Part shown: positions 5,222-15,040 of the stretch, piece by piece
How positions within the stretch are numbered: the first letter of the stretch is position 1
How the letters are laid out: each line of letters starts with the position of its first letter
From: Streptomyces sp. NBC_01803
GTDB lineage: Bacteria > Actinomycetota > Actinomycetes > Streptomycetales > Streptomycetaceae
Reading direction: 5' to 3'
DNA length: 64,000 nucleotides
NCBI RefSeq assembly: GCF_035917415.1
Contig: NZ_CP109073.1
Coordinates: forward strand, 4,634,501-4,698,500
The notes under the pieces: generated by a model
The model's input: the letters and a program-made list of their open reading frames with translations, nothing else
The model's database searches: none
Told to the model about the DNA's origin: nothing
Program-made: the position numbers and the translations under genes

Positions 5222-5921
5222 GTGCTCCCCGCGCGGGCGGGGGTGATCCGCCTTCAAGCGCGCCGCGCACAGTGACGACGGCGTGCTCCCCGCGCGGGCG
5301 GGGGTGATCCGGTGGTGACCGCGTGATCAGGAAGCGTGCGGCCGTGCTCCCCGCGCGGGCGGGGGTGATCCGTACCTCGACCAGCTCGACGTGTACCTGA
5401 TCCAGTGCTCCCCGCGCGGGCGGGGGTGATCCGGCGGACCGGATGCGGTCGTAGATTTCCTGGCGGTGCTCCCCGCGCGGGCGGGGGTGATCCGTTGCTG
5501 GTCATGATGCATCCGTTCGTGAGAAGGTGCTCCCCGCGCGGGCGGGGGTGATCCGCCCTGCCAGAAAGCCCCCGCGTAGAGAAGAGAGTGCTCCCCGCGC
5601 GGGCGGGGGTGATCCGGTGGCCGAGTGCGGCCGACGGGGCGAGAAGCGGTGCTCCCCGCGCGGGCGGGGGTGATCCGGAGAAGGGGCAGATCCAGCCGAT
5701 CGCCGTGGTGTGCTCCCCGCGCGGGCGGGGGTGATCCGCGGTGCGCGCCCCTACCCTGAGACCATGACCGGTGCTCCCCGCGCGGGCGGGGGTGATCCGT
5801 ACCAGGACGGCCGCGCGTCCTGGACGACCGCGTGCTCCCCGCGCGGGCGGGGGTGATCCGCAGCGGCGGTGATCTCCCGGCCGGCCATCAATGTGCTCCC
5901 CGCGCGGGCGGGGGTGAACGG
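5222..5921 (+). CRISPR. Type I-E CRISPR array: 12 repeats of 29 nt, 11 spacers of 32 nt
   Basis: Repeats begin at 5222, 5283, 5344, 5405, 5466, 5527, 5588, 5649, 5710, 5771, 5832 and 5893, an exact 61-nt period. The repeat begins GTGCTCCCCGCGCGGGC and ends GGGGGTGATCCG; the stem CCCCGC/GCGGGG with a GCGG loop fits Cas6e cleavage. Eleven repeats are identical by eye. The twelfth (5893-5921) has a changed end (TGAACGG instead of TGATCCG), so it is the trailer end and the leader end is next to cas2. All 11 spacers are exactly 32 nt and none repeats another. I recognised no spacer target and cannot search for one here. The last spacer and repeat are also read by the convergent gene ending at 5888. 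Confidence 0.98.
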
Positions 5922-7004: not shown

Positions 7005-7862
7005 TCACAACATGACCGCGCCGGCCACTGCCCCCGCTGTCCCGGCCAGCAGGAGGGCGACGGCGAAGGCGATGTCCATCGCTCCCGAACGGCGGTCGGC
7101 CGCGGGGTCGGGGGTGTAGACGGCCGGGTCGGCGGGGGCGTAGTGGATGGTGAGGGCGCGGTGGAGGGACCGGCCCGGATCGGAGATGCCCTTGTGGGAC
7201 AGGACGGTGACGTGGGCGCCCTCGTGGGTGGTGAAGGCGATGACCGGGGCGTGGACGACGATGTCGCCGCCGGACTCCTCGTCGCTGTAGACGTCCCGGG
7301 TGACGGCCACCACCCGGGCCGGGACGGCTACGGCCGAGGCCAGCAGGGCGTTGCGGGCGCGCACCATGCGGATGTCGGGGCTCCTCACCGCGGCAGCCGT
7401 CAGCAGGGTGCCGAAGCCGAGCAGCGCCCATGGCCAGCCCCAGTGGACCGTCGCGTGGATCACCAGCCCGATGAGGAGCAGCATGACCGCACAGTCGGGG
7501 CCCTCGCGTCCGGTCTGCTCCCCCGCGCCGCCCAGCACGACGGCGAACCGGAGAGGCTGCCCGGGCGGGTAGCGCACCTCGACCTCCCGGCCCACCCAGG
7601 CCTCCTCGATCGTGTCGCCGTGCTTGCCGGCGTTCGACAGGGTGAACTCCTGGCCCGTGCCCGGGTCCTGGAACGTGAGCGTCACCGGTATCCCGGGCTT
7701 CCTGGAGGCGCCGTGGGCCGGCTGCTCCACTGCCACGATCCGCGCCTTCACCCATACCGCTCGCTGGGCCCGGGTCACCCCGGCGAGCGAGCGCGCGTAG
7801 CCGAGCAGCGCCAGCCCGGCGGGTATCACCCACCAGAACTCCAGTAGCTCGTGACCCTTCAT
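7005..7862 (-). CDS. DUF3592-like membrane protein
   Basis: 285-aa protein starting at MKGHELLEFW; the open frame extends further but the upstream part is out of frame with the next gene. There is one N-terminal membrane segment (WWVIPAGLALLGYARSL), a first beta-rich domain (VWVKARIVAVEQ to VEVRYPPGQ), two central membrane helices (CAVMLLLIGLVIHATVHW and the next), a second similar domain (VPARVVAVTRDVY to IHYAPADPAVY) and a last membrane helix. This is a duplicated DUF3592-type layout common in streptomycetes, with no known function. The start overlaps the upstream gene's stop in ATGA, so the two are co-translated. Confidence 0.75.
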   Translation of the reverse strand: MKGHELLEFWWVIPAGLALLGYARSLAGVTRAQRAVWVKARIVAVEQPAHGASRKPGIPVTLTFQDPGTGQEFTLSNAGKHGDTIEEAWVGREVEVRYPPGQPLRFAVVLGGAGEQTGREGPDCAVMLLLIGLVIHATVHWGWPWALLGFGTLLTAAAVRSPDIRMVRARNALLASAVAVPARVVAVTRDVYSDEESGGDIVVHAPVIAFTTHEGAHVTVLSHKGISDPGRSLHRALTIHYAPADPAVYTPDPAADRRSGAMDIAFAVALLLAGTAGAVAGAVML

Positions 7863-8227
7863 CAGATCTCCACGCGGAAGCTGCCGTTGTGCGGGTCCAC
7901 GACGGCCGTGAGACGAAGCCCCACACGCAGGGCGCCATGGTGCGAGCGTCTCCAGGTCGTCTCGAACGTCCGGAATCCCGGCCCGCTGACCCGCAGGTCC
8001 ACGGTGACGCCGACGTCGTCTCCGTCGTCCCAGCGGCTCAGCTCGGTGATCTCCGCGGTGGCGGGAATCCCGACGGTGTCGAGCCGTCGGGTGTGTGCCC
8101 GCTCGACGGTGGTGTTGCCCCAGAACGCCAGGCCCAGGGGAAGGAAGACCACCGTGAGGACGATGCCCATGACCATGAGGTCCGCGTCGGCGAGGAGGGC
8201 CGAGCCGAGCATGACCGGGCCGCACAA
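7862..8227 (-). CDS. Small DUF3592-like membrane protein, possibly frameshifted at its N-terminus
   Basis: 121 aa as annotated, with one strong membrane helix (LMVMGIVLTVVFLPLGLAFW) and a beta domain (PATAEITELSRWDDGDDVGV). It ends in ATGA overlap with the gene to the left. In a different frame just upstream (8324 down to about 8230), a good coding-like stretch beginning MADDGHALRWTQVSRVG carries another hydrophobic helix. Joining the two needs a one-base shift near 8230. The natural gene may therefore be 7862-8324 with a frameshift or sequencing error. The function is unknown. Confidence 0.6.
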   Translation of the reverse strand: MCGPVMLGSALLADADLMVMGIVLTVVFLPLGLAFWGNTTVERAHTRRLDTVGIPATAEITELSRWDDGDDVGVTVDLRVSGPGFRTFETTWRRSHHGALRVGLRLTAVVDPHNGSFRVEI

Positions 8228-8366
8228 GGCACATCACCGCCGCGCTGCCGTACGCGGCGGCGGCGCCCCACGGGCCGACCCGCGACACCTGCGTCCACCG
8301 GAGCGCGTGCCCGTCGTCGGCCATGTCAGGGATCCGGGGTCTCGGATTCGTGGAAGATCGGCGAGG

Positions 8367-8792
8367 TCACGGGGTGACGCCGTCCCCTGCGTAGACGTAG
8401 CCGCCCGGCCGCGCGGGGTCGGCGATCAGCAGGACCTGGTCGCCGGTGCGGGGGATGCGCAGTTTGGAGACGACGGTCTGGAGGGTGATCGGGTCAGTCG
8501 TCCCGGACGGCTGGAGGACCAGGTCGACGACCGGGTCGTAGTTGACCAGCCGGCCGGTGTCGCCGATCGCCACGACGACGGCCAGTATGGTCGGCGCACC
8601 CATGGCGAGCAGCTGCTGGACGTCCTGGCCGGACTTGTACGCGCCGATCGTCTGCTGGACCTCGGCGAAGTCCTGCTTGCCGAGGAAGGCGCGTGTGGTA
8701 CGTCCGTAGAACCCCTTGCCGCCGGCCACTTGGCCGGCGATCTGGGTGGCCCGCTCCTCGCGGTTCTTGCCACGCTTGCTGAAGACTCCCAT
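8367..8792 (-). CDS. Small conserved hypothetical protein, divergent from the CHAT operon
   Basis: 141 aa starting MGVFSKRGKNREER; this ATG is preceded by AAGGAG at good spacing, while the longer frame start nine codons upstream is not. A short basic helix is followed by a beta-rich domain (ILAVVVAIGDTGRLVNYDPVVDL) ending IPRTGDQVLLIADP, the pattern seen in soluble DUF3592-like domains. There is no membrane helix. It is transcribed away from the TPR-CHAT operon across a 117-nt shared promoter region, so the two may be co-regulated. The function is not known. Confidence 0.65.
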   Translation of the reverse strand: MGVFSKRGKNREERATQIAGQVAGGKGFYGRTTRAFLGKQDFAEVQQTIGAYKSGQDVQQLLAMGAPTILAVVVAIGDTGRLVNYDPVVDLVLQPSGTTDPITLQTVVSKLRIPRTGDQVLLIADPARPGGYVYAGDGVTP

Positions 8793-8824: not shown

Positions 8825-8839
8825 GTGCACGGTGTGCAC
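8825..8839. promoter_or_regulatory. Inverted repeat GTGCAC-GGT-GTGCAC in the divergent promoter region
   Basis: Two GTGCAC hexamers, each self-complementary, are separated by GGT. They lie in the 117-nt region between the divergent starts at 8792 (minus) and 8910 (plus). The position suits an operator or activator site for the CHAT operon. No clear -35/-10 pair could be chosen with confidence. Confidence 0.35.
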
Positions 8840-8909
8840 GCTAGGCGGCCCGAAACCCCTACCGATCCCAGGTTCGCCCGCCCGTTCCCGGACGACGTAC
8901 GCTCGCCGC

Positions 8910-10295
8910 ATGCCGACGCCGAGCCAGCCGACCGACGCATGCCGATCTCGCGCCCTGGTCATCGACCGTGCCTGGCGTAACCTCGGGCCGGGGCTGGAGT
9001 CGCTGAGCGGGCCCGGCGGGGCGCCGTTGACCCGGACGGTCAAGCTGATCGTGCTGCCGTTGATCGTCAGGCCGTCGCTGTGTCCCGAACTCGCGGCGGA
9101 TTTCCTCGAACCGGCGCAGGCCGCGCGCCTCGACGCGCTGGTCCAGGAGTCCGGTGCGCGTCTTCGGGCGACGGCACAGTGGTTCACGCTGCTCAAGAAG
9201 ACCCGCCGGGCTCTGGGGATCGTGGCGGGTCACCCCCAAGATCTGTACTTCCAGCGGTGCTTCGAGCTGGCTACCGAGTACGGGGCGCCTTCCGTCGGTG
9301 CGGACGCTGTGGCGAGGGGCGTGGTGGAGGACGTGGCGGACGCGGGCGGCGGACGTACCGTCGAAGCGCTGAAGGGCCACCTGGCGGACGCCGCGCGGCG
9401 GGCCCGGCTCGACGGGGAACTGGCCGTCGCGTGGGCGGGTCGGCATCCGGTGGCCGCTGACGTCGGTGTGGTGGTCGCGCTGGCGGGCGCGGTGCTCGAA
9501 GCGTGCGGTGCGACGGGGCCTGCGAGGGACTCGACTGAGTACACGGCCATGGTCGAGGCGGGGCACGGAGGGCTGTTCGGCCGGGCGCTGTGGGCGCATG
9601 CGGGCGAGGTCTGGGGCGCCGAGGAACTGCCGGCGCATCTGGGGCTGACCGCGCGCCAGGCGCCGCCGCGTCCGGAGGTCGGGCGCGCCGCCTCCACCGC
9701 CACGCTTCCCGCGCCGCTCGACCGCACGCTCTTCGAGCGGCTCTTCGTCGTGCTGCAGTCGTCGTCCCGGCGCGAGGAGCTGCCGACGGTGCCGGATCTC
9801 GTCCAGCGGGAGGTCGGCCGCAGTTGCGCTCCGCTCGGCCTGCACGACGAGAGCCTGCGCGTCGCCGTCGTCCTCGGCGGGCGGCTCGCGGTCGGCCTCG
9901 ACCCGCTGGGCACCGGGGAACCCGTGCCGGGGCCCACCGCGGCGCACCGGGCCGTCAACAGCCGCTGGCGGCGCGAGGCATCGGTCCTGCGCGCCCGCAG
10001 GATGACCGTTTCTCCCCGCCCCGACCCGGACGGCGGCAGCGACAGCGGCGGCGTGCTGGACGCCCTCGCCCGGGACCTGCGCACCCCCTGGGCCGCTTAT
10101 ATGCGGCGGCTGTGGGTGCGGCTGCACGGGCGAGACGTCCGTGACGCGCCCCTGGGGGACCTCGCCTCGCTCTGGGCGGTGCTCGACGGGGTGGCCCGCT
10201 CGGTGATGATGGACCATCGCGCCAGGGTGCGGTCGGCGCTGCGCACCCTGGCGGCGACGACCGCCGTGGACACGGCCGAGCCGAGCAGCGCGTGA
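8910..10295 (+). CDS. Unrecognised 461-aa protein, first gene of the TPR-CHAT operon
   Basis: I do not recognise the family. The start is ATG 8910. The protein is mostly predicted helical, with no signal peptide or membrane helix. The first 100 residues include a hydrophobic strand-like stretch (VKLIVLPLIVRPSLC) and a basic helix (RLRATAQWFTLLKKTRRALG). The middle holds small Ala-rich helices (VVVALAGAVLEACGATG). The C-terminal third is acidic/basic mixed with a DPDGGSDSGG linker. Its stop overlaps the start of the next gene as TGATG, so the genes are coupled. An adaptor, sensor or substrate role for the protease two genes downstream is inferred from position only. Confidence 0.75.
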   Translation: MPTPSQPTDACRSRALVIDRAWRNLGPGLESLSGPGGAPLTRTVKLIVLPLIVRPSLCPELAADFLEPAQAARLDALVQESGARLRATAQWFTLLKKTRRALGIVAGHPQDLYFQRCFELATEYGAPSVGADAVARGVVEDVADAGGGRTVEALKGHLADAARRARLDGELAVAWAGRHPVAADVGVVVALAGAVLEACGATGPARDSTEYTAMVEAGHGGLFGRALWAHAGEVWGAEELPAHLGLTARQAPPRPEVGRAASTATLPAPLDRTLFERLFVVLQSSSRREELPTVPDLVQREVGRSCAPLGLHDESLRVAVVLGGRLAVGLDPLGTGEPVPGPTAAHRAVNSRWRREASVLRARRMTVSPRPDPDGGSDSGGVLDALARDLRTPWAAYMRRLWVRLHGRDVRDAPLGDLASLWAVLDGVARSVMMDHRARVRSALRTLAATTAVDTAEPSSA

Positions 10296-11581
10296 TGGCC
10301 GGGGACGGGACGCGTATCCACGTCGCACGGGGCGCGGACGGCACGATCCGGGTCGCCGCCGGTAGCCCCGTCTTCGCCCACGACGAGGTGGACGCCGTAG
10401 GCCCCGACTTCACGCGCTCCGTTCTCGACGTCGCGGGTGCCGTGCTGGTCTGGCCCGTTCTCCGGGAGCCGGGGCCGCCGGTGGCGGAGGTCCATGACGT
10501 GGGGCGGGCGCAGCAGTGGCTGTGGGCGGTCTACGGCGAGCCCACCGCTGCCGCGGTGCACGCGTGCGCGACAGGGGAAGGCGAGGTGAACCCTGTACCG
10601 GCGGACCTCGGCGCTCTCGCGGACGCTGCCGCACGGCTCGGATTCGCGCACTGGGCGGCCCGGTGGTGGCCGGCGTCGTACACCGACGGCATTCCGGTGC
10701 TCGAACCGGATGTGCTCGGCCTGGAGTCGGCGGCGCTCACACACCGGTGCCAGCAGTTGTTCGACGACTTCGGCGACCAGCCCGACGACTGCGTGAGCGA
10801 ACTCATCGAGGAGCACCGGGCCGGACTCGGCCCGCTGATCCAGTGGTGGCGCTCGGCACCACAACCGGCGGACACCGCACGCCACTTGGCGAACGTCCTG
10901 CGGCTGATCGACGACGCGGCGGACGCCGCCGGGCTGGACGGGCCGGCCCTGCGCGAACTGCGCTCGGCCCTGGAGCGGGGCCTCGCCGGTACGCCGGTCG
11001 ACGCGGGCGCGCTGTTCGCCCGGCGGGACGGCTACGCCCTCGCGGCAGGCGACGCACCCGTGTCCGGCGGCCGGGTCATCGCCCGGGGCTCGGGGAGGAA
11101 CGACTGGCGCCGCTACCCGCCGGGGTTCGTCGACGCCGCCGAGGACTCGGTGTCCTGGACCGCCCGCGCGCACGGTGCGCGCCGCCAGATCGAGGTCGAG
11201 GTCGTCGCGCACATCGCGGCTCCCGTCACGGGCGCGCTGCTCGTCGCGGAGGTCCGGGTGAACGGCGGCCCGCCGAGCCGGGTACCTCTCGCCAGACGGG
11301 ACGACGTGTGGACCGGCCGGGCGGATCTCGACCTGAACCCGCATCTCGACCTGCCGGCCGCGGCGACAGCGCCGCAGGTCGAAGTCGGAGTCCTGTTGCC
11401 CGGTTTCGACCCGGGCGCCGGTCCCGGGGGCCGCGCCGACCGTGACGCGGTCCGCGCCCTGGCCCGGCGCCGACTGGCCGACACGGCACAGCCCCTGACA
11501 TCCGACGACGCGTACGACACGTTCTCGGCGCCTTTCCTCGCCGAGACGCTCGCCGCCACCGCCACGAGTGAGGATTACTGA
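10295..11581 (+). CDS. Unrecognised 428-aa protein, second gene of the TPR-CHAT operon
   Basis: The start is ATG 10295 inside the TGATG overlap; a GTG one codon earlier is possible. There is no signal peptide or membrane segment. Residues about 1-60 look beta rich. A helical acidic middle follows (CQQLFDDFGDQPDDCVSEL). A basic RNDWRRYPPGF segment comes next, then a beta-rich domain at about residues 290-390 (RRQIEVEVVAHIAAPV, VAEVRVNGGPPSRVPLARR). This C-terminal half resembles a small beta-sandwich carrying a conserved Trp (DDVWTGRADLDL). A four-codon-scale gap (3 nt) separates it from the TPR-CHAT gene. I cannot assign a function; regulator or substrate of the CHAT protease is the working inference. 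Confidence 0.75.
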   Translation: MAGDGTRIHVARGADGTIRVAAGSPVFAHDEVDAVGPDFTRSVLDVAGAVLVWPVLREPGPPVAEVHDVGRAQQWLWAVYGEPTAAAVHACATGEGEVNPVPADLGALADAAARLGFAHWAARWWPASYTDGIPVLEPDVLGLESAALTHRCQQLFDDFGDQPDDCVSELIEEHRAGLGPLIQWWRSAPQPADTARHLANVLRLIDDAADAAGLDGPALRELRSALERGLAGTPVDAGALFARRDGYALAAGDAPVSGGRVIARGSGRNDWRRYPPGFVDAAEDSVSWTARAHGARRQIEVEVVAHIAAPVTGALLVAEVRVNGGPPSRVPLARRDDVWTGRADLDLNPHLDLPAAATAPQVEVGVLLPGFDPGAGPGGRADRDAVRALARRRLADTAQPLTSDDAYDTFSAPFLAETLAATATSEDY

Positions 11582-11584
11582 CGG

Positions 11585-14485
11585 ATGCCGGACGGAAACG
11601 AGTCAGAGGTCCAAGCGGCGGCGCCGCTGTACGGGGAGCCGTTCGACAGCGGCTTCGCCCAGGCCCACGAGCATCACATGGCCGCCGACTTCGGGGCCGC
11701 GTGCGCCGTGTACGGCGAGATGCTCGCCCTGGCCGAGTCCATCGAGGACTCGCCCGACGCGCGGTTCCTGCGCGCGCACGTGCTGTGCGACCTCGCCATC
11801 GTCCTCCTCACCGCCTCGGACCTGCCCGGGGCGCAGGACGCGGTCGAGCGGTCCCGGGCCCTGCTCGACGACATCGCGTCGGCGCAGATGGGCCCGCAGG
11901 GCCGTCAACTGTGGCTGGAAACCGTCCTGAAGACACTCATTGCCAGGTCCGACGTGATGAGCAGGACGGGGCGTCTGGACGAGTCGTTGGCCTGCCTGGA
12001 CGAAGCGGCTGCCCTGTTCCCCGAGTTCGAGGACCGCGACGGGCTGCGCGCCGCCGAACTCGGCCTGAACCGGGTCCTCCTGCTGATGAACCGGGGCGAG
12101 TGGGGAAGGGCGGAGGAACAGGCCACGCTCCTGCTGTCCACCACTCCGGCCACCGCCGCGGAGACCGTCCCCCGCCTGCTGACCGCGCTCGGCACGATCT
12201 GTGCCACGACGGGGCGGTTCGACCTGGCCGAGGACTACCTCGCCCGCGCTGACGACGGTTTCCGGGCGTTGGGGGACACCGGCGAGCGGCAGACTCTGCT
12301 CGTGCACCGGGCGTCGCTCGCGATGGAACGAGGTGAACTCGACCTGGCGGAGCGGTTGTTCGCGCAGGCGTCAGCCTTCTTCGAGGAACAGCGGCGGTTC
12401 GGTGATCTGGCGGTCTGTGAGCAGGCCCGTAGCCATCTCGCGGGCCTGCGCGGGGACGCCGCCGGCGCGAGCGATCTCATGACGGCGAGCCTGGACCGGT
12501 TCCAGCGGCTCGGCGCCTCTGTCGCCGCCGCCGACACCATGCTGCTGGGCGCCCAACACGCTTACGAGCGGGGGGACATCGAGGAGATGAAGCGGCTGGC
12601 CCAGGAGGCCCGTGACGTCTACCAGGCACGGGAGATCCACGAGCGGTGCGCCCAGGTCGACCTCATGCTCGCGGGCACCCTCGAGGACAACCTGAACCGG
12701 ACGGACCACGGCCGGCACGAGACGCGGTCCATCGACACCGCGCTCTCCCTCGCCCTGCCCGCCGCCCTGGCGCTGGCCGCGGCACGCCACGACTTCGTCA
12801 CCGCCCACGCCCGCACCCAGTGGCTGCAACTCGCGGACAAGGCCATGCACTTGGTCTTCCGGCTCGCCGTGCGCCGCCAGGACCAGGGGCTCCTCTTCGA
12901 GCTGGTGGAACACCGGTGCGCGGGCGCCGCGCTGGCACTGGGTCCCGGGTCGGGCCCCGACGACGGGCACGACGGACCGTCGGTCTTCCCGGACGCGGGC
13001 ATGAAGGCGTACGGCGACGACGGGCCGATGGCCCTCGGAGGTGTGGCTGCCGAGGCCGCCGCGTCCGCCGGGCTGCGTGTCGCACCGCCTCCGAAGGTGC
13101 GCATGTCGGGGGAGTCCGGCCGTGTCGCCCTCCAGGAGTTCATCGCGGCTGCCGAGTTCCGCTATCGCCGACGGATCGTGGACGACGAGGAGGTGCCGTT
13201 CTGGATCACCGACGAACTCACGGCCCGTCCCGTGGTCCAGATCCGACTGGCCGACGCGGGCGACCTGTTCATGACCTGGACCTGGGCCGGCGGCGCCCAG
13301 GGGTTCGGCACCGGACACGGCCCCGCTGCCGAAGTCGACCGTGCGGTCCGCGAGTTGGCCGAGGCGCTGCCCGGCTCGGGCGAGGGGACGGCCGGCATGC
13401 GGCGGGCGTTCGAGTCGGGCGCGCTGGCCGATCACCGCACCGAGCGACAGTTCGCGCGGTCGCTGGCCGAGGCGCTGTGGCCGGAGGGGCTGACGGCGCA
13501 GATCCGCCAGGTGTCGGAGCGCGCGGGCCGCCCACTGGTCCGCATCCAGCCGTCGCCCCGGGTCGCTCAAGTCCCCTGGGAACTGCTGGCCGTCGACGAT
13601 GCCGACACCCGCCTCATCGAGCTGGCGGACGTGGTGACCACCGCGCCGACGTCGTTGCGACGACAGAACACGGTGCAGCGCGCTCCTGAAGGTCCGGAGC
13701 GGGACACCGGCCCGGTCGTGCTCGTCCTCGACCCCCGGGTGCCCGGATTCCGCGCCGACTCCCCGCTCGGCTCGGTCCTGGGGCCGCCCGGCTCGGATCC
13801 GGAGCTGCTGGCGCTGGTCCAAAGCCGCCTGGACGCGGGCGGCGTCGAGCCGTCCCTCGCCGGCCCGGCGGAGGCGTTCCGCCGCACCGACCTGGACCGG
13901 GACTGGCTGAGCGGCGTGCTCCGCAAGGGGGCACGCCGACTGATGTACGTCGGGCATGTGAGCGGCACACCGGTCGAGGGCGGGCAGAGCGAGGACGGCA
14001 CGCTGCATCTGTCCTGCGGTCCGGAGACCGTCGGCCTGGCCGAGGCGGTCCGCACGCATCGGCCGCTGTCGGCCAGGGACCTCCTGCTGGGCACGCTGCC
14101 CCTGCGGGCTGACGGTGAGCCGGGGGCGCGGATCTGGCCCGCGCCGCCGCGGGTCGCCCTGATCGGCTGTGAGAGCGGTGGCGATCTGCGGTTCGCCGAG
14201 TCGTTCGGCCTGGCCACGGCGATGATCCACAACGGTGCCGAACTGGTCACCGCCACCCGCTGGGTGCTGCCGACCAGCTTCGCGTTCCACCGGCTGGCCG
14301 GCCTGGCCGAGTCCGTGCGCCCGCTGTCGGAGGCGATCGTCGCCGTCGACACCGCCCACGAGGACCCTGCCCCCGTGCAGCGGCTCGGTCGCTGGCAGCG
14401 CAAGCAGCTCGACCGCTGGCGCGCCGATGGCCGGACCGAGCACTCACCCCTGCTGTGGGCGGCCATGACCTGCATCGTCGTGTGA
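11585..14485 (+). CDS. TPR-CHAT protease (caspase-like peptidase with TPR sensor region)
   Basis: 966-aa soluble protein. Residues about 20-400 form TPR-like helical pairs (for example GRFDLAEDYLARADDGFRAL and GELDLAERLFAQASAFFEEQ, with the TPR small/large residue pattern). Residues about 400-640 are a linker with an uncharacterised beta-rich part. Residues about 660-966 are a CHAT (caspase HetF-associated with TPRs) peptidase. The start strand is LVRIQPSPRVAQVPWELLAV, the candidate catalytic His is His791 (LMYVGHVSG) and the nucleophile is Cys862 (VALIGCESGG). Both lie at the expected ends of strands, so the enzyme should be active. CHAT proteases act in regulated proteolysis and cell death, including with CRISPR in type III-E. 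The last gene of a three-gene operon, it lies between a type I-E locus and an orphan CRISPR repeat. Confidence 0.88.
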   Translation: MPDGNESEVQAAAPLYGEPFDSGFAQAHEHHMAADFGAACAVYGEMLALAESIEDSPDARFLRAHVLCDLAIVLLTASDLPGAQDAVERSRALLDDIASAQMGPQGRQLWLETVLKTLIARSDVMSRTGRLDESLACLDEAAALFPEFEDRDGLRAAELGLNRVLLLMNRGEWGRAEEQATLLLSTTPATAAETVPRLLTALGTICATTGRFDLAEDYLARADDGFRALGDTGERQTLLVHRASLAMERGELDLAERLFAQASAFFEEQRRFGDLAVCEQARSHLAGLRGDAAGASDLMTASLDRFQRLGASVAAADTMLLGAQHAYERGDIEEMKRLAQEARDVYQAREIHERCAQVDLMLAGTLEDNLNRTDHGRHETRSIDTALSLALPAALALAAARHDFVTAHARTQWLQLADKAMHLVFRLAVRRQDQGLLFELVEHRCAGAALALGPGSGPDDGHDGPSVFPDAGMKAYGDDGPMALGGVAAEAAASAGLRVAPPPKVRMSGESGRVALQEFIAAAEFRYRRRIVDDEEVPFWITDELTARPVVQIRLADAGDLFMTWTWAGGAQGFGTGHGPAAEVDRAVRELAEALPGSGEGTAGMRRAFESGALADHRTERQFARSLAEALWPEGLTAQIRQVSERAGRPLVRIQPSPRVAQVPWELLAVDDADTRLIELADVVTTAPTSLRRQNTVQRAPEGPERDTGPVVLVLDPRVPGFRADSPLGSVLGPPGSDPELLALVQSRLDAGGVEPSLAGPAEAFRRTDLDRDWLSGVLRKGARRLMYVGHVSGTPVEGGQSEDGTLHLSCGPETVGLAEAVRTHRPLSARDLLLGTLPLRADGEPGARIWPAPPRVALIGCESGGDLRFAESFGLATAMIHNGAELVTATRWVLPTSFAFHRLAGLAESVRPLSEAIVAVDTAHEDPAPVQRLGRWQRKQLDRWRADGRTEHSPLLWAAMTCIVV

Positions 14486-14558: not shown

Positions 14559-14587
14559 GTGCTCCCCGCACGCGCGGGGATGGTCCC
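14559..14587 (+). CRISPR. Orphan single type I-E CRISPR repeat
   Basis: A 29-nt sequence starts GTGCTCCCCGCACGC and ends GGGGATGGTCCC. It matches the main array repeat at 24 of 29 positions and keeps the CCCCGC/GCGGGG stem. It is closer to the common streptomycete I-E repeat form than the local array is. No second copy occurs 61 nt away on either side. The upstream bases CAGCGGAAGT resemble the CAGCAAGT before the main array. It lies in the 240-nt gap between the CHAT gene and the MazG-like gene. It may be a naive or collapsed array; chance use of the hairpin as the terminator of the CHAT operon is the alternative. Confidence 0.75.
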
Positions 14588-14725: not shown

Positions 14726-15040
14726 ATGGACCCGGCGACCTGGCAGACGATCAACCGCCTCGTCGAGTGGCTGGACGCGAACAGCACCAACAGCCATGAA
14801 GTCACCCGCCTCTTGCGCGTGCTCAAAATCCAGGAGGAGGCGGGCGAGGTCGCCGAGGCCGTGCACGGCGCCATGGGCTCCAACCCCCGCAAGGGCGCGA
14901 GCCACACCTGGGCCGACGTCGAGAAGGAACTGTGCGACGTGATCCTCACCAGCATGGTCTCGCTCGCGACGATCAACCTGGACGCGCAGAAACTCTTCGA
15001 GCACCACCTCAACGCGGTGGCGGAGCGCTCCCTCGCTTGA
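14726..15040 (+). CDS. MazG-like nucleotide pyrophosphohydrolase
   Basis: 104-aa all-helical protein of the MazG-like all-alpha NTP pyrophosphatase superfamily, which hydrolyses (d)NTPs to NMPs and pyrophosphate. The metal-binding signature is visible: the EExxE-type motif (KIQEEAGEVAEAVHG) and, about 25 residues on, the ExxxD motif (VEKELCDVIL). The length matches the single-domain short forms. It starts at ATG 14726, about 140 nt after the orphan CRISPR repeat, and is followed by a hairpin terminator. MazG enzymes occur in house-cleaning and in phage defence or counter-defence; the setting here makes a defence role possible but unproven. Confidence 0.85.
   Translation: MDPATWQTINRLVEWLDANSTNSHEVTRLLRVLKIQEEAGEVAEAVHGAMGSNPRKGASHTWADVEKELCDVILTSMVSLATINLDAQKLFEHHLNAVAERSLA

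Follow-up and report, generated by a model that had tools for sequence, protein, structure and literature searches.

CHAT proteases are known mostly as defence executioners. A close described system belongs to type III-E CRISPR (clustered regularly interspaced short palindromic repeats), where the TPR-CHAT protein Csx29 cuts Csx30, an inhibitor of CASP-sigma, according to PMC10028731. We analysed a 64,000-nt stretch of Streptomyces sp. NBC_01803 (contig NZ_CP109073.1, positions 4,634,501 to 4,698,500; hereafter the window), in which two genes, g1 and g2, precede a gene for a TPR-CHAT protein. A first-pass annotation had proposed a possible undescribed conflict system. A conserved unit with an intact protease was indeed found, but divergent envelope genes and a promoter element favour envelope control, and because of these two features our best reading moved from conflict or cell death towards control of envelope genes. 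Together, unit and element suggest an undescribed protease-linked envelope switch that is not part of the neighbouring CRISPR system.

Like type III-E CASP or Craspase (Csx29, Csx30, CASP-sigma), the locus combines a TPR-CHAT protein and partner genes with a promoter motif in the module's own locus (PMC10028731). In contrast to it, no Cas7-11/gRAMP or RNA guide was seen and the upstream cas genes that were scanned are type I-E; neither g1 nor g2 has a match in the Pfam and PADLOC libraries searched; the targets would be envelope genes, and proteolysis or release is here a prediction. Either protein may still correspond to the extracytoplasmic function sigma factor or the inhibitor of type III-E CASP, for which the Pfam scans and the g1 model gave no clear sign. 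The unit would be a CRISPR-free counterpart of Csx29/Csx30/sigma, acting on envelope genes. CATRA systems, too, join a TPR-CHAT protein to several coupled actinobacterial genes, but by sequence neither g1 nor g2 is a CATRA-N or CATRA-C protein. Compared with CHAT peptidases at large (PF12770), the window's protein is a clear member while the surrounding module differs. Finally, anti-sigma proteolysis by DegS/RseA/RpoE, as PMC10028731 describes it, follows the same logic of protease-controlled transcription on envelope stress; no homologous part was identified and the likeness is one of analogy only.

A conserved actinobacterial unit of g1, g2 and TPR-CHAT

The unit comprises the following features.

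8910..10295, + strand: g1, 461 aa, no known family, modelled all-helical, ATG start at 8910
10292..11581, + strand: g2, 429 aa, without a known family, ending in a conserved [DE]-x-D-[FY] tail
11585..14485, + strand: TPR-CHAT protein, 966 aa, a single open reading frame (ORF) in the window
13955..13957, + strand: codon of His791, catalytic-type, H in 97 of 97 readable relatives
14168..14170, + strand: codon of Cys862, catalytic-type, C in 97 of 97 readable relatives

The three ORFs lie head to tail: the g2 start overlaps the g1 end by 4 nt and the CHAT gene begins 3 nt past the g2 stop. Their coupling had been recognized in the first-pass annotation, as had the lack of a recognisable family for g1 and g2, and both descriptions held. 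Neither protein had any Pfam (E≤1) or PADLOC family match, an NCBIfam scan of the two returned one meaningless g2 match (E 0.13), a family scan of 52 and 50 aligned relatives of g1 and g2 gave nothing consistent, and no PDB relative of either was found by sequence. Structure prediction, suggested earlier as a way to place these proteins, returned for g1 an all-helical model (predicted local distance difference test 86, predicted template modelling score 0.80) with no clear match to a known structure. At the g2 C-terminus, position -2 is D in 96 of 99 and position -1 is aromatic (F or Y) in 98 of 99. EEVD tails are bound by TPR proteins, and by analogy we infer that the acidic-aromatic g2 tail is a docking tail for TPR-CHAT.

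TPRs were detected in the third gene by TPR_12 (E 2.6e-7). The CHAT domain PF12770 was matched when the C-terminal part was scanned alone (E 7.7e-12; 45.7 bits, cut-off 24) and was not listed in the full-length scan; the model was matched by 19 of the 21 CHAT members scanned, window's protein included. The His791/Cys862 pair previously noted as intact was confirmed at these positions and across all readable relatives, one more (L093) being truncated. The third gene is a clear member of the CHAT peptidases with a His-Cys dyad, and is predicted to be proteolytic. A single ORF encodes both TPR and CHAT in the window and in L051, L056, L057, L060, L141, L142, L144, L107 and L118; in the remaining loci they occupy two, mostly adjacent ORFs, as in the Streptomyces loci L052, L058, L059 and L139, this split arrangement being that of most Nocardia-type and part of the Streptomyces loci. 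In Rhodococcus opacus (L112, 11844-13436), a gene resembling thioredoxin reductase/AhpF-type flavoproteins, judged from its translation, lies between the TPR and CHAT genes, and a similar-sized gap separates them in R. koreensis (L115).

Searches for relatives, each scoring 8000 candidates with the best 120 listed, gave 601 at E≤1e-3 for g1 and 295 for g2. Counting the own genome, g2 was present in 9/150 Streptomycetaceae genomes and 11/396 genomes of the phylum, and g1 in 15/293 genomes of the order. A species-level scan (one genome per species, 84,980 species) returned 474 g1 relatives, from which the best 79 loci were kept. The neighbourhood search proposed in the first-pass annotation found the g1-g2-CHAT order on one strand in 77 of these 79, L148 and L154 stopping at a contig edge, and TPR in 77/77; the order is thus not peculiar to this genome. 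All three genes were also present in 20/20 additional genome-sample loci, chosen for a g1 or g2 match. In nine of the 20 (L041-L044, L046-L050) the CHAT gene precedes g1; we call this group Mycobacterium-type, the L046 g1 being 100% identical to that of Mycolicibacterium rutilum in a protein search, and gene order in these genomes is TPR-CHAT-g1-g2.

Pairwise distances over 97 loci were closely correlated for g1 and TPR (r 0.97) and for g1 and CHAT (r 0.94), with a range of 0.93-0.97 within g1/TPR/CHAT, while g2 distances correlated less with the other three (0.72-0.73; g1 versus g2, 0.73). The unit was found on five Streptomyces plasmid records and one from Nocardia, each above 1 Mb, and had zero matches among 50,697 phage records. 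Nothing points to housekeeping partners, given their patchy presence and lack of a known family. Judged by this gene order and distribution, g1, g2 and TPR-CHAT are one conserved actinobacterial unit. Nocardia albiluteola carries two highly similar copies on different contigs (L125, L126).

Divergent envelope-protein genes

Three further genes lie on the opposite strand.

8367..8792, - strand: sA, divergent gene for about 141 aa, a conserved neighbour of g1 in Streptomyces
7862..8227, - strand: sB1, small membrane-type ORF, N-terminal part in another frame in this genome
7005..7868, - strand: sB2, membrane-type protein with a DUF3592-like stretch

The sB2 match to PF12158 (DUF3592) has an E value of 4.2e-5 and 24.6 bits, the curated cut-off being 25.3. 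Compared with L141 and L051, sB1 is apparently split over two frames in the window (7862-8324, - strand) and may be broken.

We then compared 100 loci (the window, the 20 genome-sample loci and the 79 best scan loci). The core genes were present in nearly all (g1 in 100, g2 and TPR in 99 each, CHAT in 98). Partner genes were a 19-kDa-type lipoprotein (PF05481) in 75 loci and a DUF3592-like membrane gene in 70, some of the latter matches being weak at about 30 bits; the Streptomyces partners sA, sB2 and sB1 occurred in 13, 10 and 6 loci, respectively. Matches to PF05481, the Mycobacterium 19 kDa lipoprotein antigen family, were strong in three example loci (E 1e-22, 1.5e-29 and 2.3e-32); this lipoprotein accompanies the unit in loci of Nocardia and of the Mycobacterium-type group, and was undetected in Streptomyces-type arrangements. 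In Streptomyces, Nocardia and Phytomonospora most of the envelope genes are transcribed away from g1; in five Streptomyces loci sB2 is instead positioned beyond CHAT. The Mycobacterium-type order is lipoprotein-TPR-CHAT, followed by a DUF3592-like gene divergent from g1-g2 (8/9; L048 is without it). On this recurrence, the divergent membrane and lipoprotein genes, overlooked in the first-pass annotation, belong to the unit.

One Nocardia group (L105, L106, L102, L100, L108, L111, L113, L117 and L132) appears to have its g1 operon apart from the lipoprotein/DUF genes; the separation is seen directly in L105, which has another secreted-protein-like gene before g1, and in the rest of the group no envelope gene is listed in the piece examined.

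A promoter element accompanies the envelope genes

The region between the sA start (8792) and the g1 start (8910) contains a conserved element and two candidate -10 hexamers.

8859..8873, no strand assigned: conserved promoter element CTACCGATCCCAGGT (divergent-gene reading: ACCTGGGATCGGTAG), recognized by conservation
8838..8843, - strand: TAGCGT, putative -10 for the divergent operon, separated from the element by 15 nt
8898..8903, + strand: putative -10 TACGCT of g1, 6 nt before the g1 ATG, found by eye

The divergent promoter region claimed earlier is supported by conservation and not by a sigma-70 consensus scan, which returned 0 sites there. In 90 main-type sites, a TANNNT block lies 15 nt past the element in the divergent reading (T 79%, A 81%, T 82%). 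On the g1 side, a TANNNT-like hexamer was seen by eye 6 nt before the start in three lineages, and with so short a distance to the ATG g1 is possibly leaderless.

Among 100 g1-upstream regions, CTACCGATCCCAGGT was exact in 42 and had 1 mismatch in 4, 2 mismatches in 34 and 3 mismatches in 10, so that 80/100 were within 2 mismatches; it was absent from 10. Three of these ten loci (L102, L105, L106) hold an exact copy elsewhere. In L105 and L106 the element precedes the detached lipoprotein/DUF genes or a counterpart about 5 kb off (the genes are listed for L105), and in L048 it is kept only before the lipoprotein gene. A locus-wide search with three consensus forms, allowing ≤2 mismatches anywhere in the locus piece, found the element in 91/92 loci with an envelope gene versus 2/8 without one in the examined piece. 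For 76 of the 91 the distance to the envelope ORF as drawn is at most about 300 nt; in the other 15 the stop-to-stop ORF overruns the element or the element is elsewhere. In Mycobacterium-type loci it occupies the lipoprotein promoter in 9/9 and the DUF promoter in 8/9. Hence, on the evidence of L105/L106, of detached sB2 genes (L139, G063) and of the separate Mycobacterium-type lipoprotein and DUF promoters, the element moves with envelope genes.

Co-occurrence of the element and the unit across genomes

The exact 15-mer occurred in 9/150 Streptomycetaceae genomes, the same nine that carry g2, and in 0/141 others. A wider form was found in 10 of the 11 g2-bearing genomes among 396 of the phylum and in 0/385 others, its reversed control in 2 genomes. 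Fisher p values for co-occurrence with g2 were 1e-14 and 5e-19, not phylogenetically corrected. Similarly, YTGGGATCGGTAG was present in 9/9 unit-bearing versus 0/9 other Streptomycetaceae (reversed control in 2/18), and the exact element in 14/15 g1-bearing genomes of the order; it also occurs in a record of Nocardia farcinica and on a Streptomyces megaplasmid, both outside the earlier sets. The core TTGGGWTCGGTAG gave 48 sites, spread over 10/10 unit-bearing genomes, versus 0/10 others (reversed control 0). These 48 sites share a second block, in which position 20 is T in 42 and position 19 is C in 39. Three extra matches in G100 and G103 are without the second block and look like chance. The own genome has one element site.

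Within the Mycobacterium-type genus, core sites were present in 111/148 genomes and absent from 37, the reversed control matching 9 genomes with one site each. Among the matches listed, a local pair of sites about 4 kb apart occurred in 24 of 28 genomes, and the whole unit was present in 8/8 paired-site regions examined. No pair was seen in G466, which has the unit and lacks the DUF gene, nor in G860 and G842, which have one site each and no unit adjoining, nor in G850. This co-occurrence provides a comparative link between module and promoter.

Genes behind remote element sites

Besides the detached sB2 genes in G063 and L139, genes behind other element sites code for a DUF4870 membrane protein (G198), a secreted protein (G186), products that we read as PE_PGRS-type (G244 and G515) and a small soluble protein (G500). 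In six Mycobacterium-type genomes, by our own reading, an exported or membrane protein lies behind 23/26 remote sites, the exceptions being L170 (TetR-like), L174 and L185. The binomial p is 9e-10 at a 30% background and 4e-7 at 40%, merely indicative values because the shorter of two ORFs was taken in 10 of the 23 calls and several sites are orthologous between genomes. In G850 and G788, 8 of ten additional sites precede exported or membrane proteins, again as we read them, and L203 and L204 do not.

Two groups of products recur behind the element in Mycobacterium-type genomes or more generally among these sites. Small secreted proteins with CPG...VCH-like patterns are found in the Mycobacterium-type loci L168, L177, L181, L184, L186, L190, L191, L193 and L198, and two-helix membrane proteins of 84-98 aa (M[KN]IVPxxIxxQIxRVDRQ-like) in L169, L173, L178, L183, L188, L189, L200 and L205; the one member of this membrane family that was scanned had no Pfam match.

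Neighbouring CRISPR array, single repeat and MazG-like gene

The unit is flanked by two repeat features.

5222..5920, no strand assigned: type I-E CRISPR array, 12 repeats with 61-nt spacing, an incidental neighbour
14559..14586, + strand: single degenerate CRISPR-type repeat directly behind the CHAT gene, incidental

Both are real, as the first-pass annotation had reported; the single repeat has one genome copy within 3 mismatches. The link to the type I-E locus implied by that annotation was not supported: no array like the window's occurs in the sequenced pieces around 99 other loci, where L122 has only a 3-copy tandem. The MazG-like enzyme said to follow was recovered as a weak PRA-PH/MazG match at 14726-15040 (E 1.1e-4 and 2.3e-4). 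Its implied partnership with the unit was not borne out, a MazG-like gene failing to recur as a partner in at least 3 of the 11 other Streptomyces loci compared. From this lack of conservation, array and MazG-like gene appear incidental to the unit.

A proposed control module and its alternatives

Comparison of the loci shows a conserved unit with intact catalytic residues, an element with a recurrent promoter geometry that co-occurs with it, and downstream genes that are mostly of envelope type. We tentatively propose, at slightly less than an even chance, that g1-g2-TPR-CHAT is a control module whose output is transcription from a dedicated class of envelope-gene promoters. Promoters of this class would combine TGGG(A/T)TCGGTAG with a -10-like block at a constant spacing behind it, and would drive the divergent sA/DUF3592-like membrane genes, the 19-kDa-type lipoprotein in Nocardia and Mycobacterium-type bacteria, and further Mycobacterium-type exported and membrane proteins. 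In such a module g1 and/or g2 would supply or hold the factor reading the element, the g2 C-terminus would dock on TPR-CHAT, and the trigger would probably be an envelope-related signal, upon which the CHAT protease would cut or release a partner and thereby switch the promoters, in the direction of either activation or repression. More specifically, g1 and g2 may establish a transcription-factor class of their own, perhaps as an unrecognised all-helical pair of sigma-like or activator type, gated by TPR-CHAT in a CRISPR-free protease-to-promoter pathway for lipoproteins, small secreted cysteine proteins and membrane proteins; we regard this form of the proposal as possible yet doubtful.

Several observations weigh against the control module. 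No DNA-binding domain is visible in g1 or g2 in Pfam, PADLOC, NCBIfam or the aligned relatives. In Streptomycetaceae the element lies inside the unit's own locus, so linkage alone would yield the same pattern of co-occurrence, and the ten control genomes for the core TTGGGWTCGGTAG include none of the Mycobacterium-type genus. Also, G850 has six element sites (L197-L202), none with the unit within 9 kb. The missing domain and the G850 sites, together with a two-block promoter whose fixed spacing resembles that of sigma-factor promoters, would fit a separate, unlinked sigma factor or activator as reader of the element, the CHAT unit being a client or neighbour, such as a quality-control or death protease acting on envelope proteins. 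We consider this rather unlikely: the element was not found in the searched genomes without g2 (0/141, 0/385) or in two smaller sets of controls (0/10, 0/9), so that an unlinked reader would have to track the unit closely, and no additional regulator gene was prominent in the flank comparison among the matches listed. A unit that supplies the reader of its own element would be the simplest account.

A role of the unit in defence is possible. The fuller scheme of a conflict or programmed-death system, in which envelope proteins are sensor or effector, phage or damage sets off the CHAT protease, g1 and g2 serve as adaptors and the element only ensures joint expression, is in our estimate unlikely. 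CATRA and type III-E modules share the design of a TPR-CHAT protein coupled to partners, and the patchy presence in Streptomycetaceae (9/150) and on plasmid records would suit such a role. Against it, PADLOC gives only a weak TPR match (E 0.036), neither the phage records nor the 99 other loci add a phage match or a CRISPR array, envelope partners occur in most loci, and genes for unrelated exported proteins have the same element. That the unit is a diverged form of the CATRA ternary system is very improbable. A genuine CATRA locus (L075) also has a TPR-CHAT protein (PF12770, E 1e-16), but no CATRA-N or CATRA-C match exists in the own genome and profile comparison (hhalign) of g1 and g2 with seven CATRA proteins gave probabilities <1%, on which CATRA membership was rejected at the sequence level. 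That the unit is an accessory of the adjacent type I-E CRISPR system, as its place between array and single repeat might suggest, has next to no probability in view of the array's absence from the pieces examined of the 99 other loci. As a separate observation, L079 and L080 have CATRA-N matches, a nearby gene coding for an HTH-NB-ARC-TPR protein.

If the proposed control module is correct, a caspase-family protease would act as a gene switch outside CRISPR, for envelope control rather than death. Two unnamed protein families, g1 and g2, would gain a testable function, and an unannotated regulon of exported proteins would be identified in Mycobacterium-type bacteria.
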